Shown here in pieces: positions 32,093 through 54,391 of a DNA stretch of 64,000 bases. The stretch's first letter is position 1, and the number at the start of each line of letters is the position of its first letter. Below the pieces are notes generated by a model. That model saw nothing but the letters and a program-made list of their open reading frames with translations, made no database searches and was not told where the DNA came from. Source of the stretch: Verrucomicrobiota bacterium (GTDB lineage: Bacteria > Verrucomicrobiota > Verrucomicrobiia > Limisphaerales > UBA9464); the NCBI GenBank assembly GCA_947471985.1, contig CANIZL010000006.1, forward strand, positions 1-64,000, written 5' to 3'. The position numbers and the translations under genes were made by a program.

Positions 32093-32164
32093 CGTTTCCA
32101 CATTAGGCGGAGGAGTTTCCGCTCGTCGAACGGGAGATTTCCGCGGCGTCGGTGTGCGCGGGGT

Positions 32165-34045: not shown

Positions 34046-34231
34046 ATCCGGAGTGCGGGCACCGTAGCGGCCGGCGGGCCGGTGAACAGCGAAGCCGTGG
34101 CACACGTAATTTGGTGGCCGGCCCCGGCATTGGCCCGGGATGCCCCGCGCCTCGACGGGGTGGGGAATGAAATTTCCGATTGGTCGACGACGCGATGGTA
34201 TGGCAGCGTGAGGGCGAATTTCATCACGGGC

Positions 34232-36220: not shown

Positions 36221-37543
36221 ATGAAACCGACTCCGTCGCGCCCGGGCGCCTGTTGGCCGGACGAACATCGGCTGCATCGGCGGCTGTTTCTCAAGGGCCT
36301 GACGGCCTCCGGAGCCGCAGCGGTCACGAGTTTCAGCGGCCTCTTCACGAATCCCGCGTTCGCCGCGGCCACCCGCAAGGCGAACAAACGCGTGCTGCTG
36401 CTGTTCCTGTGCGGCGCGCCGAGCCAGTTCGAAACCTGGGATCCCAAGCCCGGCCGTCCCACCAGTGGACCGTTCGGTAGCATTCCCACGTCGATTCCGG
36501 GCGTGCATTTTTCCTCGTTGATGCCGCGGTGCGCCCGGATCGCGCACCAACTGAACATCGTCCGCTGCATGCACACGGCGCAGACGGAGCACTTGCAGGC
36601 GATCAATCTGCTCACGCGCGGGAATCCCGACCGGGCCGGCTTCACGCGGCCCACACTGGGATCGGTGGTGTCGTCGGCGATCGGCCAGCTCGACACCCGC
36701 ATTCCGAATTTCGTTCTCCTGGATGCGAATCCGGAGGGCAACGAGTTCAAGGAATATAAGGCGAGCGATCTCGCCGGCTGGCTGGGGCCGGAGCATCAAC
36801 CGGTGCGGCTCGGGGGCAGTTACACGCAGTTGGGACGCGCGGCCGATGCGCTTTCGACGGATCGCGAGGAGCGGGACGCATTGCGTCGGTATTTTGCGCG
36901 CAAGTTTGAACGGGAATCGCGCAGCCCCGTGGCCGCGGCGCAGAATGCGGCGTTTGAAAAAGTTAAGGGCCTCATGGCCAGCGCGGATCTTTTCGATCTG
37001 GCCCGGCTGCCCGAATCGGAGCGGCTGCGGTACGGACCGGGGCTGTTCGGGCTGCACACCTTGATGGCGCGGAACCTGATCGAAAATGGCGCCCCGTTCG
37101 TGATGGTGGCCAATGGCATGCCGTGGGATAACCACGTGTTCCAACATGAGATCCATCAGATGCTGGTGCCGGAGCTGGATCGGGTGCTGGACTGTCTGGT
37201 CACGGATTTGCAGGATCGTGGACTGCTGGAGCACACGCTGGTGGTGGCGATGGGTGAGTTCGGCCGCACGCCGTGGTTGAACACCTCGCGGGGCCGCGAT
37301 CATTACCCGAACGCGTGGAGTATGATGATGACCGGTTGCGGCCTGAAACGCGGCGTCGTGGTGGGCGGGACGGATGCCGACGGGGTGGATCCCGACGGTC
37401 GGTCCTACAACGAACAGAATCTGTTTGCGACGATTTTCACCGCGCTGGGCATTGATCCGTATGCGGAATTTGAGTTGAGCGGATTCCCCACGTTTCATCG
37501 CGTGGAGGATCGGGCGGAGACGATCCGGGAGGTGCTCGCATGA
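36221..37543 (+). CDS. DUF1501 secreted protein (sulfatase-like)
   Basis: The 440-residue protein has a twin-arginine-like leader (HRRLFLKGLTASGAAAVTSF) and the DUF1501 core: VLLLFLCGAPSQFETWDPKP, TRPTLGSVVSSAIGQ, MPWDNHVFQHE and LVVAMGEFGRTPWLN, then RGRDHYPNAWS. The core has the alkaline phosphatase/sulfatase fold with metal-binding Asp and His residues. It is 72 bases after the cytochrome gene and overlaps the WD40 gene by ATGA, so the three are co-transcribed. Family members act in the periplasm or outside; substrate unknown. Confidence 0.92.
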   Translation: MKPTPSRPGACWPDEHRLHRRLFLKGLTASGAAAVTSFSGLFTNPAFAAATRKANKRVLLLFLCGAPSQFETWDPKPGRPTSGPFGSIPTSIPGVHFSSLMPRCARIAHQLNIVRCMHTAQTEHLQAINLLTRGNPDRAGFTRPTLGSVVSSAIGQLDTRIPNFVLLDANPEGNEFKEYKASDLAGWLGPEHQPVRLGGSYTQLGRAADALSTDREERDALRRYFARKFERESRSPVAAAQNAAFEKVKGLMASADLFDLARLPESERLRYGPGLFGLHTLMARNLIENGAPFVMVANGMPWDNHVFQHEIHQMLVPELDRVLDCLVTDLQDRGLLEHTLVVAMGEFGRTPWLNTSRGRDHYPNAWSMMMTGCGLKRGVVVGGTDADGVDPDGRSYNEQNLFATIFTALGIDPYAEFELSGFPTFHRVEDRAETIREVLA

Positions 37544-38604
37544 AGCTGGAGACGACGAAGACGCTGAAGCTGCCGACGGGAGTTCTGGGCCTGACGGGCA
37601 CGCGGGACGGCGCGCGACTCTACGCCGCGTGCATGGATGGCGGGGTGCATGAAATCGAAGTCGCCTCCGGCGAAATCACGCGCTTTGCCGGGGGGCATCA
37701 GAGCTATGCCTCCGGATGCGTGCTGTTGCCGGACGGCCAGACGCTCATTTCGGGCGGGTACGACGGTCGCTTGCTGTGGCACGACGTGGCGAAGCGGAGT
37801 TTGATCCGCGCGGTGGCCGCGCATAATTTTTGGTCGTGGCAACTCGCGGTGTCGGCCGATGGCCGGCGCGTGGCGAGCGGCAGCGGACAATATTTGGTCG
37901 GGGGCGAAAAATACGAACCGGCGCCGGCGACCGGGGCCACGGTGAAGGTGTTCGACGCGGTGACCGGCGAGTTGACGCACGCGTTGGTGCACGGGCCGCC
38001 GGTGCAATCGGTGGCCTTCAGTCCCTCGGGCCAATATCTCGCGGCCGGCAACCTGATGGGGGACGTGGCGATTTGGGATTTGCCGACCGGACGCCAGGTG
38101 GCGGCGTTCAAGACCACCGAGTTCACCTGCTGGGGCATCATCAAGAGCCCGCACTATATCGGGGGCATCTATGGCCTCACTTTCTCGCCCGACGGAGAAA
38201 GTCTGCTGGTGTGCGGCATGGGGCCGATGGCGGATCCGATGGCGGGCAACGGCAAGATGACCTGGCAACGTTGGGTCTGGCGCGAAACCCCGGCGACCTT
38301 GCTGGGACAAATCCGGGACGGCGAGCACGGCACCGGGTTGATGGAAGCCATTCAGTTTTCGCCCGACGGGAAAGCGTTTGTCATGGCGGGACGTCAGGCG
38401 CAGGGGACGTGGAATGCCGCGGTTTTCGGCGCGGAGGAAGGTCGACTGCTGGCTTCGCTGGATACGAAATCGCGGGTCACCCGCAGTTTTTTTGCCGCGG
38501 ACGGCGGCACGCTGTTCCTCGGCGCGACGGTGGGGCAGGGCCCGCGCAAAGAGGGAAAATGGCCGGAATACGGCCGTATCCACGTGGTCGCGGTGCGGGC
38601 TTAA
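37540..38604 (+). CDS. WD40-repeat protein of the cytochrome/DUF1501 operon
   Basis: This 354-residue protein has seven or so WD40-type blades: GVLGLTGTRDGARLYAACMD, TLISGGYDGRLLWHDVAK, SVAFSPSGQYLAAGNLMGD, LTFSPDGESLLVCGMG and IQFSPDGKAFVMAGRQ. There is no signal peptide, which is odd beside two secreted partners, so export may be unusual or it may act in the cytoplasm. WD40 proteins often close PSCyt/DUF1501 operons in Planctomycetota and Verrucomicrobiota. Its start overlaps the DUF1501 stop as ATGA. Confidence 0.87.
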   Translation: MKLETTKTLKLPTGVLGLTGTRDGARLYAACMDGGVHEIEVASGEITRFAGGHQSYASGCVLLPDGQTLISGGYDGRLLWHDVAKRSLIRAVAAHNFWSWQLAVSADGRRVASGSGQYLVGGEKYEPAPATGATVKVFDAVTGELTHALVHGPPVQSVAFSPSGQYLAAGNLMGDVAIWDLPTGRQVAAFKTTEFTCWGIIKSPHYIGGIYGLTFSPDGESLLVCGMGPMADPMAGNGKMTWQRWVWRETPATLLGQIRDGEHGTGLMEAIQFSPDGKAFVMAGRQAQGTWNAAVFGAEEGRLLASLDTKSRVTRSFFAADGGTLFLGATVGQGPRKEGKWPEYGRIHVVAVRA

Positions 38605-38773: not shown

Positions 38774-41700
38774 ATGAAAACCTTCAAGGTAGTTTGGTGG
38801 TACCTGTTGCTGATCGTCGGAGGGAATTTGTCGCCGGCTTGGTCGGCCGATCCTTCAACCTGCACGCCCACGCTCCCGGCGGTCACCAAGACCTGGACCG
38901 GTGCGGCGGACACCAACTGGCAAAATCCCGGCAATTGGAATCCGGTCGGCGTTCCGGGAGCGGAGGATCACGTCCTCATTGCGGGAGCCACCGATGCCAC
39001 CGTGGTTTTGAACGGGGGCATTACCGTGGCGTCGCTGCAGTTGGGGGCCGATTCAGGTGCGGCGACCCAGACGCTGGTGTCGCCGGGTCATAGCTTCACG
39101 TTTGGTACCCTGGGATGGGTTCGGCGTCGTGGTGTGCTGCAATGGGACGGCGGCGAACTGCGCGGACGCCTGCAGGTCAGCGGTCAGGTCAACTGGACCA
39201 CGGGTCGCATTCGCGGCGGCGTGCAGGTGTGCGAAACCGGCCTGCTGACGCTCTCGACCGGCGGTGGCAAGAGCCTGTCCTCGGACAGCGATGCGGATCC
39301 GGCTTTCATTGATAATTACGGAACGACCCGTTGGTCCGGCGCCACGGTGACGGCTTGGGCTGGTGCCCAGATGACGAATCGCGGCACCTGGCAGCTGACC
39401 GGCGACGGGGTCTGGGTGGATTACTGCTGCGGCGGTGGCTTTTCCCGTTTTGTGAATTACGGGACCTTGAGTCGCACGGGCAGTCCCGCGATGGCGCAGT
39501 TCAGTCGGTCCACCTTTGAAAACTACGGCGTGGTGGATGCCACTTCGGGTCCCTTGGAGTTTCCCTCGGGCGGCACGTGGCAGGGTGGCGGGCGGATCAC
39601 GGGCTTGGCGGGGGTGCGGGTGACGGCTGGCGATCACTATTTCAACGGCCTGATCACACTGGACGGCAAGCTGGAACTGGCGGGAGGCAACTATCGCGCT
39701 TCCGGCCGGTTCAGTGGTGCCGTGCCGCTGGCGTGGACGGGAGGTCGCCTGTTTAACGCGATGACCCTCGAGCCGTCCAGCCGGTTGGAAATTCGGGGTG
39801 ACGCGGGCAAGGGTTTTAGCTCGGACAACAGCGAGGATCCCGCGTCCATTACGAACCGCGGCACGGTGGTCTGGACCGGCGGTGGGATTTCCGGTTGGGC
39901 GGGGGCGCAAATTCAGAATTTGGGGATGTGGCGCCTGGAAAGCGCGGGAACCTGGTTCGACTATTGTTGCGGCGGCGCCGGGCCGTCGTTTGTGAATCGA
40001 GGCACGCTGATCAAGGCGGGCGATACCAATGCCACGGCGTTTGCCCGGGTGACCTTTCAAAATCTGGCCACGGTGCGGGCGGAGAGCGGTCCGCTGGTTT
40101 TCCCCGTGCATAGTCAGTGGATGGAGGGCTGTGAGATTACGGGCGACGGCGGGGTGCAGTTGGTGTCCGGCGACCATTATTTCGAGGGCCTGCTGAAGCT
40201 CAACGGACGGCTTGAGTTGAATGGCGGCAACTATCGCCATCAGGCCCGCTTCACTGGCCCGGTGCCGTTGAAATGGAATGCCGGTCGCTTTTTCGACGGT
40301 CTGACGGTGGAGCCGTCGGGTCGGTTGGAATTGCGCAGTGACGCGGTGAAGCAACTTAGTTCGGACAACAGCGAAAACCCGGCGGTGATCACGAACCGGG
40401 GCACCGTGGTGTGGTATGCCGGACTAATGCAGTGCTGGGCGGGCGCGCAGATGCAGAATCTGGCCAGTTGGCGTCTGGAAGGCAGCGGATACTGGACCGA
40501 CTATTGCTGTGGCGGCGCTGGACCGCTGTTTGTGAATCGCGGCACTCTGACCAAGGCGGGAGACACCAACGCGACGTACTTCGCCCGGGTGACTTTCCAG
40601 AATTACACGAAGGTGGTGGCGGAGAGCGGTCCACTCCTGTTTCCCGTCCATAGCCAGTGGATGGATGGCAGTGAGTTATCCGGGGCCGGCGGGGTGCAGC
40701 TCGTGGGTGGTGAACATTATTTCGAAGGGGTGTTGAATGTGAACGGCCCGTTTGAGCTGAACGGGGGCAATTACCGGCACCAGCCTCGCTTCACCGGATC
40801 GGAGCCGGTGATCTGGAATGCTGGGCGATTTTTCAACAGTCTCACCATCGAGCCGGCCGGTCGCCTGGAGATGCGCACCGACGCGGCGAAACAGATCAGT
40901 TCCGACAGCAACGAAAACCCGACGACGATCACGAACCGCGGGACGGTGGTGTGGTATGCCGGACAAATGCAGGGGTGGTCCGGCGCGTTGATTCAGAATT
41001 TGGGCACCTGGCGATTGGAAGGCGCGGGGACTTGGATGGATTACTGCTGCGGCGGGAACTGGCCCAGTTTTTACAATCAGGGAAATCTGACCAAAACGGC
41101 GGATACGAATGATATTCAGTTTGCGCGGGTGGTCTTTCAAAATCGCGGGAGCGTCAATGTCCTGTCCGGGGGCCTGCAGTTTGGGGCGCACAGCGACTGG
41201 CAACCCGGGAGTCGGGTGAATGGTGCCGGCGGCATTCAGCTCACCGGTGGCGATCATTACATTACCGGTCTGCTCACCCTCAATGGCCCGTTCGCCCTCG
41301 CGGGCGGCCGATTGTTGGGCGACGGACATATCACCGGCCCGGTGCCCCTGACGTTGCGCAGCGGGCGTATCCAAACCGCGCTCACCATCGAGCCGGAAGG
41401 ACGCATGATCATTCAAGCGCCGGGGATCTCCTTCAGCTCGGACGTCAATGAGAACCCGGCTGCCATCACCAATCGCGGGACGGTGAACTGGCTCAGCGGT
41501 GGGATTTCGGCCTGGAGCGGCGCCCGGGTCGTCAATCGCGGCCAGTGGCATTGGAACGGCGGCGATACGACCTTTGATTTCTGCTGCGGTGGCAATTGGC
41601 CGTCCTTCGACAACTCGGGTGAAATCTTCCGCGATGGCACCGGGACGGCCTATCTGAGCCGGACCATTTTCACGTCGCCGGGAATGGTGCACGTGCAGTC

Positions 41701-44700
41701 CGGCGATCTTGAAGTACAGAATTTGGCCCTGACCGGGACGTCGGTGTTTGATTTTTCCCCGTCCACATTTGGCACGCTGGCGACGCTGCCGCAGTTCCGG
41801 GTGCGCGATGGTTTCCAATTGGATGGCACCGTCGCGATCACGCTGCCGCCCGCGATGGCCCTCGAACAAGGTCAGTCGTTTCCGCTGATCACGGGTGGGA
41901 CCCGTTCCGGCCTGTTCGCGGTCGAGGAATTCCCGGTGCTGCCGGATGGCAACTCGCTGTCGTCGTCGTATCAGAACAATGCGGTACGGGCGCAGGTCAC
42001 GGAGCCCTGTCTGGCGAATGGATTGATTGGCTGGTGGCCGGGCGAAGGCAGCGCGTCGGATGTCACCGGCCGGCATCCGGGCACGCTGGTCAACGGCGCG
42101 ACTTATGCCCCGGGGTTGAATGGCAAGGCGTTCGCGCTCGACGGACAGAGTGCCTACGTGTCGCTCGGAAGCTGGTCACCGGGTTTCTCTTGGACCTTGG
42201 AGGCATGGGCCCAGGCGTCCGCCCTCCCCGCGGGCCGGCATACGGTGCTGGGCAGTGCCGGGGGTTGTTTGGATTGGGGCTTGGTGCTGCAGGAGGGGCA
42301 GTGGGGGATGATGTTGCGACCGCCTGGTGGCTGCACGTCTTCGCTCCTGACTGGCACCAACGCGGTGGTGGGTGAGTGGTACCATCTGGCGGGCACGTAC
42401 GATGGCCAGCAGGTCCGTTTTTATCTGAACGGCGTGTTCATCGCCGCCACGGCGGCCGACCCGAACTATGTTGGTTACACGGGCGAGGCGCGGATCGGGG
42501 GCGAGCCCTGTTGCGGTAACTTCTTCGGTGGGCTCGTGGACGAACCCGCCATTTATGATCATGCGCTCAAGCCGACGGAAATCGCCGCGTTGTTCCAAGC
42601 CGGGGCCAAAGGCCGCTGCGCGCAGTATCGGCTCGGTGTTTTGCGCTTCTCGCCCACGGGACCGATCCGCACCAATGTCGCCCGGATCGACGTCCGCTTC
42701 AATCAGCCGGTTCGTTCCGACAGTTTCACGGCCGCCGATCTCCAGATCTTCACGCCGTCCGGTCTCCTGCCCGCCGCGGGAATCACGGTGACGCCGGACG
42801 CGGCCCTGGATCAACGCTCCTTTGTGGTGACCTTCGCCGCGCAGAGCGCGCCTGGGGCCTATCGGGTCGTGGTCGGACCCGAGGTCCTGGACTCCGCCGG
42901 CAATCCCATGGCGCAGGCGTACGAAGCCACGTTCACCATCGACGCCACCGGACCGCGGGTGATTTCCCTGGCGCCGAACTCCCCGGCGACGAATCGCGTG
43001 GACGCCTTGGACGTCACGTTCGATGCCCCGCTGAATCTGGCGACGCTGCAGTCCACCGATTTGATTTTGACGGGCCTGCAGGTTCCGTCGGTGGGCGCGC
43101 CGGTGGCTTTGAGCAATGCCGTTTACCGCTTCCCGCTCTCCGCGCCTTTGGCAGCGGGCAGTTACACGGTGGCGGTCGGACCCGACCTGGCGGATCCGGC
43201 GGGCAACCTGATGGATCAGAATCTCAACGGCACGGGTGGCGAGACGAATGACGTCTTCACCGCCACGCTGGAAGTGCGGGCGGCGGATCTGCAGGTGTTG
43301 TCGCTGGTGCCGCCGTCGGTGGCGTTGCTGGGTGATGCCGTGCCGGTGGTGCTGACGATCACCAATGCGGGCACTGCGTATGCTGTCGGCCCGTGGCAGA
43401 ATTCCGTGCTGCTGGCAGATAACGCGGCGGGCACGGGCGCGATCACTTTGGGCTCGTTTGTCTTCAATGGCAGCCTGGCGCCCAAGTCCTCCCTGGTGAT
43501 GACGCAGCAGATTTTGCTGCCGGCCACCGCGATCGGTCCGCGCTGGTTGGGGGTGACCTTGGACACGCAGCAGCAGGTGATCGAAACGGTGCGTAACAAC
43601 AACACGCGTTTCGCATCGACCTCGATCGCCATCAGTGCCGCGGATCTGACCGTGAGTGCGATCACGGCGGCGGATGCGGGAGTTTTCGGACAGAACTTCA
43701 CCGTGCGCTTCACCGTGAAGAACGTCGGCACGGCCGCCACGCTGGCGCCGTGGGTGGATCAGATCTTTCTGAGTCCGCAGGCCGGCTCGCTTTCCGGTGC
43801 GACCTTGCTGACCGCGGTGGCGTCCAGTCCGCTGGCGGCGGGCGCGAGCTACACGCGAACCAACGTGCTCACACTGCCCCTGGCGGAAGCCGTGGCGCCC
43901 GGAGCCTATTTTCTCGTCGTGGTGGCGGATGCGGCGAATGCGCAATCCGAAGCACTCGAGACCAACAACGTCGCGTCCCGGCCGCTCGCCCTCACGCTGC
44001 CGCCGTTGCCGGATCTGGTGGTGCTGGATGTACAGGCGCCGGCGTTCGCCGTGCCGGGCGGCAATCTTGAGGTTACCTGGGCGATCAAGAATCAGGGGAA
44101 CCTCATCGCCACGGGACCGTGGCGGGAATCGCTCAATCTTTCGAATCTCAACGGGAATCTGACCCTGCTCGGCGATCTCGTGGTGTCCAATGCCCTGGCG
44201 CCGGGTGCCACGCTGTTCCATACGCGGGTGCTGCCCCTGCCCGAGGGCCTGCCGGCGGGCGCCTCGCAATTGGTCGTTTCCGTGGATGCCGATCGGACGG
44301 TCATTGAATCGAACGAAAACAACAATGCGGGATCGCCACCGAAGGCGGTTTCCATTCCGGCCAACCTGAGTCTGACGCTGGCCACGACGGACGTGCGGGA
44401 GGACGCCCCGGCGTTCGTGGGTACGCTGACGCGCAACAGCGATGTGCGGGTGCCGCTGACGGTGACGCTCAGCAACAGTGCTCCGGCGCAATTGATCACC
44501 CCGGCCACGGTGCTGATCCCGGTCGGGCAGACGACCGTCACCTTCCCGTTGCAGGCCGTGGCGGATAAAGTGACGGATGGCGATCAGGCGGTCCGGTTGG
44601 AGGCCCGGGCGACGGATCATTTCGGTTCCGCGGCGGTGATCGTGGTCCGCGATGTGGATCTGCCGCTGCTCACGCTCTCCCTGGCCACCAATCGGGTGCG

Positions 44701-47700
44701 CGAAGGCTTCACGGTTTCGGTCACGGCGCAACGCGCCGGATCGACGAACGCAGAATTGCCTGTGTTCCTGGAAAGCGGTGCGCCGGGCCGGATTCTGCTC
44801 GCGTCGCAGGTGACGATTCCCGCGGGGCAGCGCTCCGTTTCGTTTGCCGCCATTGCGTCCGACAACGTCCGGATCGAGCCGCCCGTGGACGTGACCCTGA
44901 CCGCGGTCGCCCCCGGCTACGCACCGGCCCAAACGAACGTGCTGGTCATGGATGACGACCTGCCGGCGGTGCGGCTGACCGTCGCCTCGACCAACATCAG
45001 TGAAGGCGGCGGCCCGCAGGCCACGGTGGGCACGGTGACGCGCTTCGGGCCCGTCACCCGGCCGGTAAACCTGGCGCTGGAAAGTTCGCTGCCGGGCACC
45101 TTGATGCTCCCCGCCACGGTGACCATCGCCGCTGGGCGGACCAACTTCACGTTCCCGATCGCCGCGAAGGATGACGCCCTCGTTAATGGCTCCCGGACCG
45201 CGGAGCTGCGGGTGTTTGTGCTGGAGACCGGATCCCTCAACATCGTCGCCGAGGGCGAGGGTGTGGACGTCACGGTGCTCGACAACGACGGCCCCACTCT
45301 CGGGCTGAAACTGGATCGCGACCTGATTCGTGAAGGCGTGGTGGGCGGTGTCGTGGGTACGGTGTCCCGGAACACGGCGACCAACTCCCCACTGGTGGTG
45401 ACGCTGACGAGCAGTGATCTGACGGAAGCGAAAGGCCTGGCGACGGTGACGATTCCTGCGGGACAGACCTCCGCCACCTTTGCGATCGATTCGCTGACCG
45501 ATGGCACGCAGGATGGCAACCAAGCCGTGACGTTCACCGTCGCGGCGACGGATTTCACTTCCGCCTCCGCCGGTCTGGTGGTCTCCGACATCGACTTGCC
45601 GGACTTGGTGGTGACGCGATTGACCGGTCCCGCCAACGGTGAGACGGACGCGCTGGTGAGCAGCAGTTACCGGGTGGAGAACCGGGGCGTCACACCGGCG
45701 AAGGGCCCCTTCCTCACGCGCTTGTATCTGAGTGACGATCCGCTGGTCGGCGGCGACACGCTGATCGGGCAGTACTCGTATGCCGATTCGCTCGCGCCGG
45801 GACAGTTCTTTGAACAGACCCTGCAACACCGGTTGCCGAAGAGTTCGGGCACCTATCGTCTGATTGCCACGACCGACGCCGGAGAGGCGGTGGACGAAAT
45901 TCGCGAGGACAACAACACCACGGTGGCGGGGACGGTACTGCCGGTGGCGGCGGCCTACACGGCCACGGTGGAAACGGATGTGACTTCGGCCCTCGCCGGC
46001 ACGCCCATCGCCTTGCGCGGCGCGGCCCTGCGGCGCGACGGATCGATTGCCTCGTCGGTGCCGGTCTCCATTCACATCACGGTGCGCGGCTTCCGTCGCC
46101 TGGTGAATGTCATCGCCGACACGGCGGGTCGGTTTGTTGCCACGTTCACGCCCTTGCCGGGTGAAGCGGGACTTTATGAAATCGGTGCGGCGCATCCGGG
46201 GGAAGCCACGGCGCCGGTGCAGGATCGTTTCAGCATTCTCGGATTCCGGGCCGATCCGGGGTCCGACAGCCTCAGTCTCCGACCGGCGGAAACCAAGACG
46301 GGCGAGATTCGCCTGACCAACCTCAGCGATATCGCGCTGAACGGTCTCTCGGTGAACGTGCTCGGCGCGCCGCCGAATCTGGAGATTCGCGCCACCCTCA
46401 GCGGACCGGCGTTGCCCGGCTTCGGCGCTCGAACGTTGAATTACACGGTCACCGTGAAGGATGTCTCCGCCACGGTGGGATCGTTTGGTCTGCGGGTTAC
46501 CTCCTCGGAAGGGCCGAGTGTGGAGATCCCGGTGCAGTTCACGCTGGCCCTGCCGCAACCGCAATTGGTGGCGATTCCGGGCTTTCTCCAGGCCGGCATG
46601 GTCCGGGGCGGTCAGGCGAACGTGGAGTTCGATGTCGTGAATGTTGGTGGGGCGACCAGCAGTCCGGTGACGCTCTCGTTGCCGGATGTGCGTTGGTTGA
46701 GTCTGGCCACCACCAACACGCTCCCGCCGCTGGCTCCGGGCGCCACCAATCACGTGGCGCTGTTGCTGACCCCGTCCACGGATCTGGATCTCGGACCGTA
46801 CGACGGTGGTATCGCGCTGAACGGCACGGACGTGGCGCTGACGGTGCCGTTTCAGTTCATCGCCCAGTCGGATGCGTTCGCAGAACTGGTGCTGCGGTTT
46901 GAGGATGAATTCACGTACTACGGCGAAGGTGCGCCGACGGTGACCAATGCGGTGGTGACCATTCGGGATTCGGTCACCCAGCAGGTGGTGACCAACGGCG
47001 TGGCGGATGCCCGCGGGGAATTCCGCATGAAGGGTCTGCGCGAAGGCCACTACGTCGTGGAGTCCAACGCCGAGAAACACACGCCGGCGCAGGCGAATGT
47101 CAGCATCGTGGCCGGCACGACCAACCGCGTTTCGGCGTTCCTTTCCCGCGAACTGGTGGAATACGTCTGGTCGGTGGTACCGACGGAGATTGAGGACCGC
47201 ACGCACATCGTCATTGAGACGATTTTCGAAACCGTGGTTCCGGCCCCGGTGGTGACCATTGAACCGTCGTCCATCGACCTGGCGGAAATGGTGGGGGACG
47301 AGATGCAGGTGGATCTGGCCATCTCGAATCATGGCCTGATTGCCGCGCAGGATTTCCGGTTGGAATTTGATGCGCATCCGAATTTCACCTTCACGCCGCT
47401 GATTGAATCGCTGGGCACGTTGCCGGCGCAGAGTTCGTTTGTGGTGCCGCTCTTGATCAAGCGGGTGCCGGACGCCAGCGGGGCCAGCGGTACGGTGAGC
47501 TTTACCTCGATGGTCGGACGGCGCGCGGGCAAGGCCGCCGGGGCGGCGAACGCGCCGTGCTCGGGTGCCGGCCGCGGCATTCACACGCTGAAGTGCGGCA
47601 AGATCCAGACCTACGTCACGCCCATCACCCTGCGGAACGCGGGCAATTGCGGCGGCAGCAACAGCGGCAGCAATGCCGGCGGCGGTCCGGGCGGTGGCAG

Positions 47701-50700
47701 CAATTACGGTTATGGTTGCTGTGGCGGCGGTTCGGGGCCGGGTTCCGCTGCGCCCTTTGTCAGCAAACGCACCTTCAAACAGGATGAGAAATGCGATTGC
47801 TCCACGCAGGGATTCAAGGCGGAATGTTACGAGATCGGCGTCGGTTCCATCGGCGCCAAGGTGCCGCCGCAGTTGCTGCAAATCCCCGGGACAGGCATTC
47901 AGGGGAAGGCGGAGATCAAGCTCAATGGTTCCGCCAAATTGTGCAGTTGTTGCGAGGACGGTTCCGAAGGCTGGAAGCTGGAAGGTACAGCCAATGTCAG
48001 CGGCACCATCGGTCTCCGCTTCCCCATCGTGGGCGGTGACTTCAGTTACGAGTACGAGGAGGCTGGTCAGAAGTTCGGCATCACCGCGACGGCGGGCTGC
48101 TTCATCACCCCGGAAGTCTCCGTGAGTGGCGGCATCAAGGCCCAGACGGACTGCTTCTTCAAGAACCCCAAGTATTGCGCGAACTTCACCGCCGGTGGAT
48201 CGCTCGCCGGTACCTGCGAATTGGGCGGCGGTTACTCGGCAGGCACCATCGGGGGCGAAGCCAAGATCTCGGCGGGCATCAAGGGCGGCATCGAAATGTC
48301 CTACAGCAGCTGCGACGACGGCACCACGGAGTTCAAGATCTGCCGCACCGCGGTGACGGCCGAGATGGGCGCCGAGTTCACCTACAACGAACGCAGTGTC
48401 GGACCGAAGTGGAGCAAGGAATTGCTGCCCGAGGATTGTCATCAGTTGCGAAGCGCGGCGTTGTCCGAGGAATTCGCTGATGTGAAGCGGCAGGTCGATG
48501 AACTGGCCCAGCGCGCCTTCGAAGACTTCTTCCGGCAACAACCGCTGTTGGCGCAACGCGAAATCAGCCGGCGCTTCTTTGAGCGTCCCTCGGGAGCGGC
48601 CCCGGCCTCGGCCGATGGGGATGCCTTCCGGCTGGACTCGCCGTTTGGTCGCGCGCTGGCGACGATTGCGAATGAACTGGGGGTCTCGGTGACGCCCGCG
48701 ACCGTGGCCACGGCTCCGGCCGGTGGTCGCGCCACTGCGGGTGGCACGCCGCGCAAGCAGGCCGGGGGCGAAGTCTGCGCCCGCGTGAAGCTGCGCATCG
48801 ATCAGGACCTCATCCTGACCCGCAATGCTTTCAACGCGACCCTCGAACTCATCAACCGCGACCCGGTCAACGAGATTGAAGAAATCAATGTGAGCGTCGA
48901 AGTCTATGACGCCGCCGGCCATGCCGTCACCGATCGTTTCGGAATCCGTCCGCCGGTGCTGAAGAATCTCAGCGCCGTGGACGGCACGGGCGTGGTGGTG
49001 GCCAACAACTCCGGCAGCGCGTCCTTCATCCTCGTCCCCACGCGGGAAGCCGCTCCGGAAGTGGAAACCGAATATTTCGTGGGCGGCTTCCTCAGCTACC
49101 GCATCGGTGGCCAGGCGGCGGCCATTCCGTTGATCCCGGTGCCGATTCACGTGCGCCCGGATCCGCTCCTCGTGGTGCAGTATTTCCACGAGCGCGATGT
49201 CTTCAGCGATGATCCGTTCACCCGCGACATCAAGGAGCCCACCGTGCCCTACAACCTCGCCGTCATGGTCGCCAACCGCGGCAAGGGCGAGGCCCGCAAT
49301 GTGCGGATCGTCTCCAGCCAGCCGAAGATCGTGGAAAACGAAAAGGGTCTGGCGATCGACTTCAAGATCATCGGCACCCAGGTCGCCGGCCAGAGCGTGG
49401 ATCCCTCGCTCACGGTGAACTTCGGTCTCATCGGGGCGGACGAAATCAGCATCGGTCGCTGGTTGCTGACCTCCACGCTTCAGGGCCTGTTCGTCGATTA
49501 CAAGGCCACCTTCGAGCACCTCGACAGTCTGGGTAAGACCAACCTGTCGTTGGTGGATGCGGTCACCATTCACGAGATGATTCATCTCGTGCATGCCGAT
49601 CGGCAGTTTGACGACGCCAAGCCCGACTTCCTCGTCAACGACCGGATCGACAATGAGGACCTGCCGGACACGCTGTATTTGAGCAACGGCCAGACGAACC
49701 GGGTGACGACGCTGCGGCAGGCGACGCCCGGGGCGGCGGTCACGGCGGCGAGTCTCACGACCACGCTGCGCCTGAAGGACACGCCGGCCGGTTGGGTTTA
49801 TCTGCGTGTGCCGGAACCCACAGGTGGCCGGTTTGAGCTGACCCGCGTGGAGCGTCCGGATGGTTCCGCGGTCTTCCTGGGCACCAACGTGTGGGTGACG
49901 GATCGGACCTTCACCGGCGGGGCGAATCGTCCCAAGTATGAGTGGAATCTGCACCTGCTCGATTACGACACCGCGGGGACGTACACACTGTTCTACTCCG
50001 AACGGAGTGCGGCGGATGTCACCCCGCCGGTCAGTGCCGTGGCCCCGCTGCCGGCCAACAGCTTCTCCACCATTCCCGTGTTGTGGGATGGCGGTGACGA
50101 ACCCGGCGGCAGTGGCCTGGCGGGCTTTGATGTCTTTGTCTCGGAGAATGAGGGCGCCTTTGTGCCCTGGTTGCAGAACACCACCGCCCGCGGTGGCGTG
50201 TATCGCGGCCAACCGGGTCGGACGTATTCCTTCTATAGTGTGGCGGTCGACGTCGTGGGTAACCGCGAACCCGCCCCGCTCACGCCGGATGCGACGACCA
50301 CGGTCACCCGGGCCAATACGGCGCCGACGCTGACGCCGGCCACGACGGTGATCGACGAAGGTCAGACCTTGAATCTCGCCCTGGACGGCAAGGATGCCGA
50401 GGCTCCGCCGCAAACCCTGACGTGGAGTCTCGGAGCGGACGCGCCTCCCGGGGTGGAGATCAATCCGGTCACCGGTCGCTTGACCTGGTTGACCGGTGAA
50501 GGCACGGGACCGAGCACCAACACCTTCAAGGTGACCGTGCGCGACAACGGCACGCCGAGTTTGAGCGTGCAGACGAACATCACGGTGATCGTCCGGGAAG
50601 TGAATTCCGCGCCCACGCTGGAGCCGGTGGCGTCCTACATCATCAGCGAGGAACAGCTGCTGGTGGTGCCGTTCACGGCGGGCGACGGGGATCTGCCGCC

Positions 50701-51520
50701 GCAGAAACTGCAGTTCCGACTGCTGCCCGGTGCGGCGACGGGCGCCACCATGGATGCGCAAACCGGCCTCTTCCGCTGGCGGCCGAATCGGCTCCAGGGT
50801 CCCTCCACCAACACGTTCGTCGTGCAGGTGGCGGACAATGGCAATCCGGTGCTCACCGCCACGCGCGAGCTGGTGATTGTGGTGCGCGACACGCGCGGGG
50901 ATTTTGGGTTGGGGATCAGTTCCACCAACGTCTTCCGCGGCGACTCCGGTACGGTGATCCTGCAATTGAACTCGCCACTGGATCTCACCACGGTGAGCCT
51001 GCGGCTGGATCTGCCCGGCAACATTCTCACGAACCTGGCCCTCGTGCCGCTCGCTCCGGAACTGGCTTCGGCCACGCTCCTGCCGCGGGGCAGTGACCAG
51101 TATCAGGTGGAGTTCACGGCGGTCCCGGGGCTGACCCTGGCGGGCGATCTCACGCTGGCCCGACTCAACTTCGGCACGCCGGCGGGCACACTCTCCGGAG
51201 TGCAATCGCTGGTCCCCTCCGAGCTGCGCGCGCTGCGTCCGGATGGTTCGACGCTCAACAGCTCCCTGGCCGAAGTCGGCCGGGTGGTGGTGGTGGGGAA
51301 CCAACCGGTACTGCTCGCGGGACGCGACACCAACGCCGCCCCGGCCTTCACCCTCTTCGGGCGCCCGGGCGTGACCTATAAGGTGGAATCCACGCTCACT
51401 CTCGAGCCCGGCGCGATCTGGACGAAGGTGGTGAGTGTGCCGTTGACCACACCGTACGTCCTGGTGCGGGGTCTGACGTTCACACATCAGATCGAATGGT
51501 TCAGGGCCCGTCCGGAATAA
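38774..51520 (+). CDS. Giant secreted repeat protein (4,248 residues)
   Basis: A signal peptide (to ~25; ends SPAWSA) is followed by a beta-helix-like start (TKTWTGAADTNWQNPGNWNP). Five ~180-residue repeats with a conserved (D/F)YCCGG motif span nt ~39,270-41,750. By approximate nucleotide position come: LamG-like lectin domain 42,010-42,620; two Big_5-like domains 42,640-43,290; three CARDB domains to 44,350; four Calx-beta domains 44,360-45,600; CARDB 45,600-45,950; Ig/NEW3-like parts to 46,880; carboxypeptidase-regulatory-like 46,900-47,140; a Cys/Gly-rich zone 47,540-48,470; a domain with a HEMIH motif near 49,570; two cadherin/He_PIG-like domains 50,300-50,900; and a cohesin-like end. 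It is probably an extracellular adhesin or matrix protein. No sorting signal or C-terminal anchor is seen. It sits between two cytochrome/DUF1501 operons, 169 bases after the first. Confidence 0.92.
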   Translation: MKTFKVVWWYLLLIVGGNLSPAWSADPSTCTPTLPAVTKTWTGAADTNWQNPGNWNPVGVPGAEDHVLIAGATDATVVLNGGITVASLQLGADSGAATQTLVSPGHSFTFGTLGWVRRRGVLQWDGGELRGRLQVSGQVNWTTGRIRGGVQVCETGLLTLSTGGGKSLSSDSDADPAFIDNYGTTRWSGATVTAWAGAQMTNRGTWQLTGDGVWVDYCCGGGFSRFVNYGTLSRTGSPAMAQFSRSTFENYGVVDATSGPLEFPSGGTWQGGGRITGLAGVRVTAGDHYFNGLITLDGKLELAGGNYRASGRFSGAVPLAWTGGRLFNAMTLEPSSRLEIRGDAGKGFSSDNSEDPASITNRGTVVWTGGGISGWAGAQIQNLGMWRLESAGTWFDYCCGGAGPSFVNRGTLIKAGDTNATAFARVTFQNLATVRAESGPLVFPVHSQWMEGCEITGDGGVQLVSGDHYFEGLLKLNGRLELNGGNYRHQARFTGPVPLKWNAGRFFDGLTVEPSGRLELRSDAVKQLSSDNSENPAVITNRGTVVWYAGLMQCWAGAQMQNLASWRLEGSGYWTDYCCGGAGPLFVNRGTLTKAGDTNATYFARVTFQNYTKVVAESGPLLFPVHSQWMDGSELSGAGGVQLVGGEHYFEGVLNVNGPFELNGGNYRHQPRFTGSEPVIWNAGRFFNSLTIEPAGRLEMRTDAAKQISSDSNENPTTITNRGTVVWYAGQMQGWSGALIQNLGTWRLEGAGTWMDYCCGGNWPSFYNQGNLTKTADTNDIQFARVVFQNRGSVNVLSGGLQFGAHSDWQPGSRVNGAGGIQLTGGDHYITGLLTLNGPFALAGGRLLGDGHITGPVPLTLRSGRIQTALTIEPEGRMIIQAPGISFSSDVNENPAAITNRGTVNWLSGGISAWSGARVVNRGQWHWNGGDTTFDFCCGGNWPSFDNSGEIFRDGTGTAYLSRTIFTSPGMVHVQSGDLEVQNLALTGTSVFDFSPSTFGTLATLPQFRVRDGFQLDGTVAITLPPAMALEQGQSFPLITGGTRSGLFAVEEFPVLPDGNSLSSSYQNNAVRAQVTEPCLANGLIGWWPGEGSASDVTGRHPGTLVNGATYAPGLNGKAFALDGQSAYVSLGSWSPGFSWTLEAWAQASALPAGRHTVLGSAGGCLDWGLVLQEGQWGMMLRPPGGCTSSLLTGTNAVVGEWYHLAGTYDGQQVRFYLNGVFIAATAADPNYVGYTGEARIGGEPCCGNFFGGLVDEPAIYDHALKPTEIAALFQAGAKGRCAQYRLGVLRFSPTGPIRTNVARIDVRFNQPVRSDSFTAADLQIFTPSGLLPAAGITVTPDAALDQRSFVVTFAAQSAPGAYRVVVGPEVLDSAGNPMAQAYEATFTIDATGPRVISLAPNSPATNRVDALDVTFDAPLNLATLQSTDLILTGLQVPSVGAPVALSNAVYRFPLSAPLAAGSYTVAVGPDLADPAGNLMDQNLNGTGGETNDVFTATLEVRAADLQVLSLVPPSVALLGDAVPVVLTITNAGTAYAVGPWQNSVLLADNAAGTGAITLGSFVFNGSLAPKSSLVMTQQILLPATAIGPRWLGVTLDTQQQVIETVRNNNTRFASTSIAISAADLTVSAITAADAGVFGQNFTVRFTVKNVGTAATLAPWVDQIFLSPQAGSLSGATLLTAVASSPLAAGASYTRTNVLTLPLAEAVAPGAYFLVVVADAANAQSEALETNNVASRPLALTLPPLPDLVVLDVQAPAFAVPGGNLEVTWAIKNQGNLIATGPWRESLNLSNLNGNLTLLGDLVVSNALAPGATLFHTRVLPLPEGLPAGASQLVVSVDADRTVIESNENNNAGSPPKAVSIPANLSLTLATTDVREDAPAFVGTLTRNSDVRVPLTVTLSNSAPAQLITPATVLIPVGQTTVTFPLQAVADKVTDGDQAVRLEARATDHFGSAAVIVVRDVDLPLLTLSLATNRVREGFTVSVTAQRAGSTNAELPVFLESGAPGRILLASQVTIPAGQRSVSFAAIASDNVRIEPPVDVTLTAVAPGYAPAQTNVLVMDDDLPAVRLTVASTNISEGGGPQATVGTVTRFGPVTRPVNLALESSLPGTLMLPATVTIAAGRTNFTFPIAAKDDALVNGSRTAELRVFVLETGSLNIVAEGEGVDVTVLDNDGPTLGLKLDRDLIREGVVGGVVGTVSRNTATNSPLVVTLTSSDLTEAKGLATVTIPAGQTSATFAIDSLTDGTQDGNQAVTFTVAATDFTSASAGLVVSDIDLPDLVVTRLTGPANGETDALVSSSYRVENRGVTPAKGPFLTRLYLSDDPLVGGDTLIGQYSYADSLAPGQFFEQTLQHRLPKSSGTYRLIATTDAGEAVDEIREDNNTTVAGTVLPVAAAYTATVETDVTSALAGTPIALRGAALRRDGSIASSVPVSIHITVRGFRRLVNVIADTAGRFVATFTPLPGEAGLYEIGAAHPGEATAPVQDRFSILGFRADPGSDSLSLRPAETKTGEIRLTNLSDIALNGLSVNVLGAPPNLEIRATLSGPALPGFGARTLNYTVTVKDVSATVGSFGLRVTSSEGPSVEIPVQFTLALPQPQLVAIPGFLQAGMVRGGQANVEFDVVNVGGATSSPVTLSLPDVRWLSLATTNTLPPLAPGATNHVALLLTPSTDLDLGPYDGGIALNGTDVALTVPFQFIAQSDAFAELVLRFEDEFTYYGEGAPTVTNAVVTIRDSVTQQVVTNGVADARGEFRMKGLREGHYVVESNAEKHTPAQANVSIVAGTTNRVSAFLSRELVEYVWSVVPTEIEDRTHIVIETIFETVVPAPVVTIEPSSIDLAEMVGDEMQVDLAISNHGLIAAQDFRLEFDAHPNFTFTPLIESLGTLPAQSSFVVPLLIKRVPDASGASGTVSFTSMVGRRAGKAAGAANAPCSGAGRGIHTLKCGKIQTYVTPITLRNAGNCGGSNSGSNAGGGPGGGSNYGYGCCGGGSGPGSAAPFVSKRTFKQDEKCDCSTQGFKAECYEIGVGSIGAKVPPQLLQIPGTGIQGKAEIKLNGSAKLCSCCEDGSEGWKLEGTANVSGTIGLRFPIVGGDFSYEYEEAGQKFGITATAGCFITPEVSVSGGIKAQTDCFFKNPKYCANFTAGGSLAGTCELGGGYSAGTIGGEAKISAGIKGGIEMSYSSCDDGTTEFKICRTAVTAEMGAEFTYNERSVGPKWSKELLPEDCHQLRSAALSEEFADVKRQVDELAQRAFEDFFRQQPLLAQREISRRFFERPSGAAPASADGDAFRLDSPFGRALATIANELGVSVTPATVATAPAGGRATAGGTPRKQAGGEVCARVKLRIDQDLILTRNAFNATLELINRDPVNEIEEINVSVEVYDAAGHAVTDRFGIRPPVLKNLSAVDGTGVVVANNSGSASFILVPTREAAPEVETEYFVGGFLSYRIGGQAAAIPLIPVPIHVRPDPLLVVQYFHERDVFSDDPFTRDIKEPTVPYNLAVMVANRGKGEARNVRIVSSQPKIVENEKGLAIDFKIIGTQVAGQSVDPSLTVNFGLIGADEISIGRWLLTSTLQGLFVDYKATFEHLDSLGKTNLSLVDAVTIHEMIHLVHADRQFDDAKPDFLVNDRIDNEDLPDTLYLSNGQTNRVTTLRQATPGAAVTAASLTTTLRLKDTPAGWVYLRVPEPTGGRFELTRVERPDGSAVFLGTNVWVTDRTFTGGANRPKYEWNLHLLDYDTAGTYTLFYSERSAADVTPPVSAVAPLPANSFSTIPVLWDGGDEPGGSGLAGFDVFVSENEGAFVPWLQNTTARGGVYRGQPGRTYSFYSVAVDVVGNREPAPLTPDATTTVTRANTAPTLTPATTVIDEGQTLNLALDGKDAEAPPQTLTWSLGADAPPGVEINPVTGRLTWLTGEGTGPSTNTFKVTVRDNGTPSLSVQTNITVIVREVNSAPTLEPVASYIISEEQLLVVPFTAGDGDLPPQKLQFRLLPGAATGATMDAQTGLFRWRPNRLQGPSTNTFVVQVADNGNPVLTATRELVIVVRDTRGDFGLGISSTNVFRGDSGTVILQLNSPLDLTTVSLRLDLPGNILTNLALVPLAPELASATLLPRGSDQYQVEFTAVPGLTLAGDLTLARLNFGTPAGTLSGVQSLVPSELRALRPDGSTLNSSLAEVGRVVVVGNQPVLLAGRDTNAAPAFTLFGRPGVTYKVESTLTLEPGAIWTKVVSVPLTTPYVLVRGLTFTHQIEWFRARPE
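39270..41760 (+). repeat. Five tandem ~540-bp repeats inside the giant gene
   Basis: The units start near 39,277, 39,816, 40,357, 40,896 and 41,433, spaced 537-541 bases. Each begins with SSD(N/S)xExPxxITNRGTV-type residues and reaches W-x-D-Y-CCGG about 50 residues later, followed by a ~100-residue spacer ending in a GGVQLVSGDHYF-like strand. Units 2-4 are the closest at the DNA level, so unit duplication is recent compared with the outer units. The first and fifth are more divergent (GGGF and FDFCCGG). Confidence 0.85.
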
Positions 51521-51525
51521 GCGGG

Positions 51526-51558
51526 CGGATTCGGGGTTCCCTGCGGAACCCGGATCCG
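51526..51558 (+). terminator. Candidate terminator hairpin of the giant gene
   Basis: CGGATTCGGGGTTCC and GGAACCCGGATCCG can pair, with one bulge or mismatch, around CTGC just after the stop at 51520. There is no good T-run (TTATCG), so it may be a weak or attenuating terminator before the next operon (start 51578). Confidence 0.5.
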
Positions 51559-51577
51559 TTATCGTCGGTGAATCAGC

Positions 51578-54391
51578 ATGGCGAAAATTGTCACACCCGC
51601 TGGGTTGTCGCTGCCGGATCCGGGTTTTGCCCCGGATCCGGCGGTGGTGCGTCGGGCGTGGCGGTCGTGGGCCTTCGCGGTGGTGGCCGCGCCGTGTTTG
51701 TGGTGGGGCGGGGCGGGATGGGCGGCGGAGGCGGTGCCCAGTGCCGCCGTGGCCGGGAAATCGTCCGCCCCAGTAAAGGCGACGAGGGCCGCTGAGTCCC
51801 GCGAGGAGTGGGCCTTTCAACCACTCCGTCCGGTCACTCCGCCCCAGGTCGCCGGCGTCGCCACCGGGCATCCGCTGGATCGGTTCATCGACGCCCAACT
51901 GGCCGCTCAGGGTTTGCATCGTTCGCCGTCGGCGGATGCCCGGACACTGTGCCGTCGATTGTACTTCGATTTGATCGGTCTGCCGCCCTCTCCGGAACAG
52001 TCGGAGGCCTTTGAAGCGGCCCATGCGTTGGATCCGGCCGCGGCGGTGGCGCATCTGGCGGACCAACTCCTGGCGTCGCCCCAGTACGGCGAGCGCTGGG
52101 CCCGGCATTGGCTGGATGTGGTGCACTACGGCGACACCCACGGTTACGACAAGGACAAGCCGCGGCCGTACGCCTGGCCGTATCGCGATTATGTGATCCG
52201 GGCGTTTAACAGCGACAAACCCTATGCCCGGTTTCTCGAGGAACAGCTCGCCGGGGATGTGCTTTATCCGGGCGAATCGGACGGCATCGAAGCCCTGGGG
52301 TTCATCGCCGCGGGACCGTGGGATTTCATCGGACACGCGGAACTGCCGGAAAGCAAAACGGACGGCAAGGTGGCGCGGCACTTGGATCGGGATGACATGG
52401 TGGCGAACACCATGGGCACATTCGCGAGTGTCACGGTGCATTGTGCGCAGTGTCACGCGCACAAGTTCGATCCCATTTCGCAGGAGGATTATTACAGCCT
52501 GCAAGCCGTGTTCGCGGCGGTCGATCGGACGGAACGAAAGTACTATGCGGATCCGGCGTTGACCCGGCGGGCGGCGGAGTTGGAAGCCCGGCAACGTCAG
52601 TTGAAGCAGCGGCAGGACGCCCTGGATGCGCAGGCTGCGGCGGCGGCCGGCGAGGGGCTGAAAAAGCTCGACGCGGATATCGCGGCGGCGACGCGCCAGC
52701 CGGGCGGAAATCCCGGAGCGGAATTCGGCTACCACAGCGAAATCTCCCCCCAACCCAACCTGCTCAAATGGGTGCAGGTGGATCTCGGCCGCCGCGTCGC
52801 GCTCGACCGCGTGGTCCTGTGGCCGGCGTATGACGACTTCGCCAACATTGGTGCGGGCTTTGGTTTTCCCCTTCGGTATCAGGTGCAGGTCGGTGACGAT
52901 CCGGAATTCCGCGAGAGTGTCATTCTGTCGGGTGTGGCGGTGAACGACGATGCACCCAAACCAGGATTCCAACCGCAGGTGGTTCCGGCTTCGGAAGTAA
53001 CCGGGCGTTATGTGCGGGTGACGGTGATCAAGCTGGCCCCCCGGTCCGACGACTTCATTTTCGCCCTCGCGGAGCTGCAGGTATTCGATCAGGCGGGTAC
53101 GAATCACGCCCTGCATCGGCCGGTGACGGCGCAGGATTCCATCGAGGCGCCGCCGCGTTGGCAGAAGGCGAACCTGGTGGATGGTATTGTCCCCGCCCCA
53201 CCGAAGACGGGCGACGTGGCGGAAATGAAGCAGCGGCGGATGGCGCTCTGGAAGGAATCATTGTCCGCGGCGGCGCAGGCCGAGTGGGCCACCACCACGA
53301 ACGCTTTGGCCGGTGTCCGCGCGGAACTGGCAGCACTGCCTCCGCCGCGCATGGTGTATGCCGGCGGCGTGCACTCGGGCTCCGGTAATTTTGTCGGCAC
53401 CGGCGGCGCGGGGGGGCAGCCGCGGACCATTCACGTGCTGGCGCGCGGACAGGTGACCCAACCCGGCCAGAAGGTCGGACCCGGGGCGCTATCGGCTCTG
53501 GATTTTCGTTCGGCGCGTTTTGAACTGCCGGAGACCGCCACCGAAGGCGATCGCCGCGTGGCGTTGGCGCGCTGGCTGGTCGATCCCGCCAATCCGTTGA
53601 CCTGGCGCAGTATCGTCAACCGGGTGTGGCAGTATCATTTCGGCCGCGGATTGGTGGGCACGCCGAACGACTTCGGTCGCATGGGCGCCCGGCCGACGCA
53701 TCCGCAACTGCTGGACTGGCTGGCGACGGAGTTTCGCGACGGCGGCGGTTCATTGAAGCAATTGCACCGTCTGATCGTAACGAGTGCCACCTACCAACAA
53801 TCCGTGGGCACGGACGCCCGGGCGGAAAATCTGGATTCGGACAACACCTTTTTGTGGCGGCAGAATCGGCGCAAGCTGGAAGCCGAAGCGGTTCGCGACG
53901 CGGTGCTTCAGGTCAGCGGTAAGCTGGACCTGACCCCGGGCGGGCCGGGATGGCAGGACTTCGTCATCGAACATCCCGAGCACTCGCCGCACTACGAATA
54001 CGGCCTCGCGGATCCGGAGGATCGGCGCACCTGGCGGCGATCGATCTACCGCTTCATTGTGCGCTCGCAGACGCAACCCTGGATGACGGTGTTGGATTGC
54101 GCGGATCCCTCGATTCGGGTGGAGCGTCGCAATGAAAGCCAATCCCCGCTGCAGGCGCTCGCCTTGTTGAACAACGGATTCATGGTGGCGCAGGCCCGGC
54201 ATTTTGCCGAGCGCGTCCAGCGGGAGCGATCCACGCTGGAAGAGCAGGTTCGGTATGCTCATCGATTGGCGGTGGGCCGATCACCCCGGGACGCAGAGTA
54301 TTCCTCCCTGCTGGCCTTCGCCCAACAGCACGGCCTGCCGCAGTTGTGCCGGGTGTTGTTCAATCTCAGTGAATTCGCGTTTGTCGACTGA
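51578..54391 (+). CDS. DUF1549/DUF1553 protein with internal discoidin-like domain
   Basis: The 937-residue protein has a signal-anchor-like N-terminus (AVVAAPCLWWGGAGWAAEAV). A DUF1549 domain follows (LDRFIDAQLAAQGL, LCRRLYFDLIGLPPSPEQ, HCAQCHAHKFDPI with one CxxCH). A coiled coil and an F5/8-type discoidin-like insert (WVQVDLGRRVALDRVVLWPA, FALAELQVFD) lie at ~385-510. The DUF1553 domain comes last (WRSIVNRVWQYHFGRGLV, NDFGRMGARPTHPQLLDWLA). There is no PSCyt1 cytochrome domain, unlike the homologue at 34,232. A carbohydrate-binding insert suggests a glycan substrate. Its stop is six bases before the DUF1501 start. Confidence 0.9.
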   Translation: MAKIVTPAGLSLPDPGFAPDPAVVRRAWRSWAFAVVAAPCLWWGGAGWAAEAVPSAAVAGKSSAPVKATRAAESREEWAFQPLRPVTPPQVAGVATGHPLDRFIDAQLAAQGLHRSPSADARTLCRRLYFDLIGLPPSPEQSEAFEAAHALDPAAAVAHLADQLLASPQYGERWARHWLDVVHYGDTHGYDKDKPRPYAWPYRDYVIRAFNSDKPYARFLEEQLAGDVLYPGESDGIEALGFIAAGPWDFIGHAELPESKTDGKVARHLDRDDMVANTMGTFASVTVHCAQCHAHKFDPISQEDYYSLQAVFAAVDRTERKYYADPALTRRAAELEARQRQLKQRQDALDAQAAAAAGEGLKKLDADIAAATRQPGGNPGAEFGYHSEISPQPNLLKWVQVDLGRRVALDRVVLWPAYDDFANIGAGFGFPLRYQVQVGDDPEFRESVILSGVAVNDDAPKPGFQPQVVPASEVTGRYVRVTVIKLAPRSDDFIFALAELQVFDQAGTNHALHRPVTAQDSIEAPPRWQKANLVDGIVPAPPKTGDVAEMKQRRMALWKESLSAAAQAEWATTTNALAGVRAELAALPPPRMVYAGGVHSGSGNFVGTGGAGGQPRTIHVLARGQVTQPGQKVGPGALSALDFRSARFELPETATEGDRRVALARWLVDPANPLTWRSIVNRVWQYHFGRGLVGTPNDFGRMGARPTHPQLLDWLATEFRDGGGSLKQLHRLIVTSATYQQSVGTDARAENLDSDNTFLWRQNRRKLEAEAVRDAVLQVSGKLDLTPGGPGWQDFVIEHPEHSPHYEYGLADPEDRRTWRRSIYRFIVRSQTQPWMTVLDCADPSIRVERRNESQSPLQALALLNNGFMVAQARHFAERVQRERSTLEEQVRYAHRLAVGRSPRDAEYSSLLAFAQQHGLPQLCRVLFNLSEFAFVD

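Follow-up and report, generated by a model that had tools for sequence, protein, structure and literature searches.

Introduction

Adhesins of the EtpA, TpsA and filamentous-haemagglutinin type are secreted proteins that fold as a beta-helix of large repeated modules, and in EtpA the repeat modules work jointly as a lectin (PMC11463764). Vicinal disulfides, formed between two adjacent cysteines, are rare in solved structures; they can bind ligands, stabilise a structure or act as switches, and they can touch sugar rings, for example in arabinofuranosidase 1wd4 (PMC12102755). For vWF A2, a role of such pairs in sensing force is under discussion (PMC9210963).

Here we analysed a giant gene in a 64,000-nucleotide stretch of a Verrucomicrobiota genome (hereafter the window), whose product carries an adjacent cysteine pair (CC) in each of five large repeats. 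We know of no described repeat with a vicinal disulfide on the same face of every beta-helix unit, and a search of the literature on giant Verrucomicrobia adhesins or vicinal-cysteine adhesins returned nothing on the CC repeat.

Results

Organization of the giant protein

Positions 38774-51520 of the plus strand form a single open frame with an ATG start, which encodes 4,248 residues. Complete homologues aligned over nearly their full length (~4,000-4,200 aa) with 42-45% identity. The features are as follows.

38774..51520, +, giant modular protein, probably secreted, 4,248 aa
38774..38848, +, putative Sec signal peptide, aa 1-25
38873..39169, +, N-terminal WTG...NW..G.P module, aa 34-132, leading into the beta-helix (from sequence)
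39170..39709, +, predicted beta-helix unit 1, aa 133-312
39425..39430, +, Cys218-Cys219 of unit 1
39710..40249, +, predicted beta-helix unit 2, aa 313-492
39965..39970, +, Cys398-Cys399 of unit 2
40250..40789, +, predicted beta-helix unit 3, aa 493-672
40505..40510, +, Cys578-Cys579 of unit 3
40790..41329, +, predicted beta-helix unit 4, aa 673-852
41045..41050, +, Cys758-Cys759 of unit 4
41330..41866, +, predicted beta-helix unit 5, aa 853-1031, second half diverged
41582..41587, +, Cys937-Cys938 of unit 5
42140..42586, +, LamG domain (Laminin_G_3), aa 1123-1271
42509..42514, +, Cys1246-Cys1247 of LamG, in EPCCGNFFGG
43271..47473, +, chassis block 1, aa 1500-2900, CARDB and Calx-beta-like domains, recurring in many of the order's giant proteins
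47486..48778, +, cysteine-rich insert, aa 2905-3335, differing from one giant protein to another
48761..51511, +, chassis block 2, aa 3330-4246, in which conservation is highest (aa 3401-3600)

Inspection of the N-terminus, MKTFKVVWWYLLLIVGGNLSPAWSADP, revealed a resemblance to a Sec signal peptide, and the homologues are similarly hydrophobic there. These N-termini make it probable that the 4,248-aa protein is exported, in line with the earlier note, which had called it secreted. No sorting domain was recognised in it. The WTG...NW..G.P module shared 37% identity with the N-terminus of another giant protein encoded in this genome. Downstream of the array, Pfam matches comprised LamG, Big_5, CARDB (four stretches) and RibLong, together with some weak matches. 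The protein has two further CC pairs (aa 2982 and aa 3059), which are unrelated to those of the repeats. The sequence HEMIH at aa 3600 was considered as a metalloprotease motif and ruled out, because homologues read HEMNR or HRMIH and the motif is not conserved.

On the minus strand, a 3,646-aa open frame runs antisense to the gene (42176-53116), and one homologue (in genome G020) likewise has an antisense frame, of 3,724 aa. The antisense frame is probably a shadow of GC-rich codon use.

The repeat array and its cysteine pairs

The CC pairs of the array were spaced by 180, 180, 180 and 179 residues, which bore out the five ~180-residue repeats described in the earlier note. The position of the motif also stood, each being found ~30-40 residues past ITNRGTV or an equivalent segment; the residue order given there, (D/F)YCCGG, had to be corrected to D(Y/F)CCGG (four DYCCGG and one DFCCGG). 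Units 3 and 4 were 72% and 58% identical to unit 2, and units 1 and 5 were more distant. A DNA pattern with two copies of the motif occurred once in the window and in none of 100 shuffles.

Both cysteines were present in 41 of 41 units from eight arrays and one partial protein in seven genomes; these units were gathered by means of the CC motif itself, and an order-wide profile search gave no extra strong unit without CC. Six of ~180 columns were invariant among the 41 units, namely two Cys, two Asn and two Gly, and a Tyr preceded the pair in 40 of them. Units of one protein shared 40% identity on average, and units of different proteins ~35%. Cysteines were otherwise nearly absent: 82 of the 85 in the arrays belonged to CC pairs, with three stray ones in 7,339 residues. 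Single-Cys variants were found in 0 of the 41 units, as collected by the CC motif, and no His, Met or further Cys was conserved as a ligand beside the pair in these units. The Cys codons switched between TGC and TGT among units, indicating that selection acts on the protein.

Searches of Pfam, NCBIfam and PDB sequences gave no match past the cut-off for the repeat. When 15 two-unit stretches were scanned one by one for weak family matches, DUF6322 (PF19847) was hit in 5 of 15 (best E 3e-5) and Hyphal_reg_CWP (PF11765) in 4 of 15 (best E 4e-5), while PATR (PF12951) and TIGR02601 each appeared weakly in one or two members (E 0.0065 and 0.0036). The window repeat scored 18.6 bits against DUF6322, below the Pfam cut-off of 30.6; the weak match spanned the segment ahead of CC, and DUF6322 matched 0 of 38 relatives. 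As judged from these profiles, the repeat is covered by no named family, as the earlier note had supposed.

Predicted fold of the array

Structure prediction, which the earlier note had suggested, was performed with AlphaFold2 on two units and 15 aligned rows. The model was an all-beta solenoid with pLDDT of 95.4 and pTM of 0.90, in which strand positions recurred at an offset of 180 residues. In a Foldseek search against the PDB, beta-helix proteins were listed but none with E below 0.001, and against viral models nothing fell below E = 0.001. VIA-align gave Z of 14-16 over 250-340 residues for Pam1 tailspike, a capybara-gut beta-helix, EtpA, UpaB, Ag43 and PL6 lyases. That the array forms a parallel beta-helix is well supported by the model, as a prediction. 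One unit would comprise about eight coils of ~22 residues each, with the Asn residues of the TNRGT, QNLG and VNRG turns placed at equivalent coil positions and CC preceding one such turn. Known beta-helices have an Asn ladder, to which the turn Asn of the unit can be likened. In the model, Y-C-C-G-G lies at a turn between two coils, where the invariant turn residues Asn and Gly adjoin it. Since eight to nine coils at ~4.8 A place successive CC pairs 38-43 A apart, a bond between units would be too far.

These likenesses have limits. EtpA (8vbb) was aligned with Z of 15.1, rmsd of 8.5 and 9% identity over 339 residues; compared with the EtpA/TpsA adhesins, with which it would share secretion, adhesion and a beta-helix of large repeated modules, the present protein has ~180-aa units with vicinal Cys on a CARDB/Calx-beta chassis. 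An N-terminal TPS (haemagglutination activity) domain, which would mark a TpsA protein, had no Pfam match up to E = 1. The autotransporter passengers Ag43 and UpaB share the beta-helix fold (Z ~15), with sequence matches (PATR, TIGR02601) that were not significant, and the C-terminal beta-barrel of classical autotransporters also had no Pfam match up to E = 1.

The LamG domain

The LamG domain matched the full length of the Laminin_G_3 profile (PF13385) with 79.9 bits against a cut-off of 27.6, and its CC pair lies at aa 1246-1247, so this part of the earlier note held. The closest structure to its model, which is of medium confidence (pLDDT 66) with the CC loop below 50 and not resolved, was AbnA domain 4 (5hon/5ho0; Z 16, 22-24% identity). 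AbnA domain 4 is a LamG-like carbohydrate-binding domain solved with an arabino-oligosaccharide. Among the seven LamG domains behind CC arrays, the CC pair was kept in five and replaced by TV or GG in the other two, and four other Cys were invariant in all seven. These four could pair together, which would leave the LamG CC, too, to pair with itself. A CCG-bearing LamG was also found in giant proteins where no CC repeat was seen. Because the repeat CC and the LamG CC each occur without the other, they are not inherited together, and the link that the earlier note drew between them falls away.

Distribution of the CC units and the wider repeat family

Arrays with the same CC were found in six more of 96 genomes searched; five belong to the family of the window's genome, and the sixth to a different family within the order. 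With a profile at E 1e-22, the CC array was seen only in the window's genome in a 387-genome sample of the phylum, and only in the window's genome and one other (G089) in a 384-genome sample of the class. A DNA pattern of two successive motifs, which demands one particular Tyr codon so that the scan is not exhaustive, matched only six Verrucomicrobia MAGs, apparently the six genomes just described, among one genome each of 84,980 species. Viral contigs gave no two-motif DNA match, and phages no match to the repeat. As far as found, proteins with CC arrays are confined to seven Verrucomicrobia genomes of one order.

A profile search with the repeat, also suggested in the earlier note, gave hits in 78 of 320 genomes from the order. 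Those outside the seven CC genomes were weaker (E 1e-11 to 1e-22), and the loci read lacked the CC motif, many having F-YN-x-TGG or similar in place of YCCGG. Such ~180-aa repeats, in giant proteins of the same order, resemble the CC units in unit length, Asn/Gly pattern and N-terminal place on the same chassis, but they are without vicinal Cys. When the 41 CC units were placed in one tree with 49 non-CC units, the latter retrieved with a profile made from CC units, all CC units fell on one side of one branch with SH-aLRT of 98, although the motif columns had been taken out before the tree was built. By their sequences, the CC units are a cysteine-marked clade of a wider, unnamed beta-helix repeat family, and the CC repeat is apparently of single origin. 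The repeat, which the earlier note had considered new-looking, is thus unnamed but not isolated. In four genomes (G020, G023, G027 and G031) the units clustered by position, which indicates an old array in these genomes; the window's units 1-4 instead clustered together, suggesting that they were later duplicated or homogenised. In the related repeats of one locus (L055, G176:C714), this loop held another kind of Cys pair (CDQ...YCxTP), possibly an independent disulfide at the same site.

The best-conserved 260 residues of the chassis (aa 3380-3640) were found in 83 of 313 genomes from the order, in up to seven copies per genome and with 45-83% identity among most matches; Pfam and NCBIfam gave nothing significant for this segment. 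Twelve giant chassis proteins, whose retrieved sequences measured 2.9-6.3 thousand aa and of which two came from the window's genome, shared aa ~1500-2900 and/or ~3330-4246 with roughly 38-53% identity, and diverged towards the N-terminus and again around aa 2900-3330. As the chassis is common and the N-terminal parts differ, the CC array represents one front end among several. The cysteine-rich insert (aa 2905-3335) constitutes a second variable region, whose Cys columns were nearly all kept in close homologues and replaced in many chassis relatives. On one contig (G023:C267) two giant chassis proteins lie close together (L063 and L071), one a partial sequence of 2,515 aa from the chassis end and the other, also partial, of 2,885 aa with a CC array; their proximity suggests local duplication.

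Genomic neighbourhood

The gene is flanked as follows.

31382-36148, upstream, PSCyt1/DUF1549/DUF1553 protein
36221-37543, upstream, DUF1501 protein
37540-38604, upstream, WD40 protein
51578-54391, downstream, DUF1549/1553 protein
54398-55909, downstream, DUF1501 protein

The genome of the window (G000, 6.4 Mb) contained 57 DUF1501 genes above the cut-off. A DUF1549/1553-DUF1501 pair was found upstream of the G020 homologue; apart from this case, the contigs of the other homologues, some of which are short, showed no homologue of the flanking genes. The neighbourhood gives no functional hint. No TpsB outer-membrane partner was found among ten neighbouring proteins scanned. The genome encodes VKOR and DsbA-family proteins, indicating that exported cysteines can be oxidised.

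Discussion

We tentatively favour, at somewhat less than even odds, that the protein is a surface adhesin in which a row of vicinal disulfides at a pitch of ~4 nm forms a multivalent, possibly glycan-binding face. The first ~1,030 residues would fold as a parallel beta-helix of five ~180-residue units, followed by the LamG domain and then by the long conserved CARDB/Calx-beta-like chassis, which would serve as stalk and anchor. After export, each CC pair would close on itself. We infer the vicinal disulfide, the one-face row and the adhesin role from several observations. Two adjacent Cys are conserved in every unit and the three stray Cys offer no other partners; a vicinal disulfide is most likely because the array has no other conserved Cys and the next CC is ~8 coils away. 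Because the strand pattern is the same after a shift of 180 residues, the disulfides should line up on one face at this pitch. They might then form small hydrophobic platforms for weak but multivalent binding to a repetitive surface, which would most likely be a polysaccharide. The analogy proposed is with 1wd4, where adjacent Cys form a hydrophobic element in contact with sugar (PMC12102755); that is a different protein with one pair, compared with an array of putative disulfides here. Glycan binding is possible because beta-helix lectins provide precedents and the best match of LamG is a carbohydrate-bound domain, and a glycan as the ligand is our guess by analogy. The fuller picture, in which every unit exposes its disulfide on the same face to give the tip of the giant protein a ruler-like row of identical ligand platforms that would bind glycans or respond to redox state or force, is possible but rather doubtful.

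The chief alternative is that the pair serves only as a structural lock of the turn, in which a vicinal disulfide or a tight CCGG turn stiffens a long loop or resists proteolysis, and the array is a stalk without binding by CC. The motif does sit in a turn beside invariant Asn and Gly, and relatives hold the loop with other residues (YN-x-TGG) or, in L055, with a different Cys pair (C-D...Y-C), as if fixing it sufficed. The many relatives without Cys argue that Cys is not needed for the fold, however, and retention in all 41 units suggests more than convenience, so that we consider such a lock fairly unlikely. The same isolation of the pair, whose sole intramolecular partner is the adjacent Cys, would also fit cross-links that tie neighbouring molecules into fibres or sheets, and the regular spacing would suit register-matched bundles; but two adjacent Cys per site would be unnecessary for this, and none of the units, gathered though they were by the CC motif, had a single Cys. 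We regard such cross-linking as quite improbable.

It is improbable, too, that the pairs serve as a reversible redox or force switch, cycling between dithiol and disulfide, or as a site that binds a soft metal, for instance Cu or Hg. Vicinal disulfides are able to act as switches (PMC12102755) and figure in the force-sensor discussion for vWF A2 (PMC9210963), but an exported protein is expected to be oxidised in a genome having VKOR and DsbA-family proteins, and a metal would find no conserved His, Met or extra Cys ligand beside the pair. As for the earlier note's argument that the flanking cytochrome/DUF1501 genes form a glycan-capture operon with this gene, the flanks are as it described and the G020 homologue also has such a pair upstream. 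With DUF1501 genes so numerous in the genome and the flanks otherwise not kept in homologues (on contigs that are partly short), the argument loses its basis, and we consider this operon very improbable.

These findings bear on two wider matters. A CC pair in every unit, apparently of single origin, would offer a clean test of vicinal pairs as sugar-binding platforms. The shared chassis, in turn, points to a large unannotated family in a little-studied order, consisting of probable surface proteins of 3-7 thousand residues that combine this chassis with front ends that vary.
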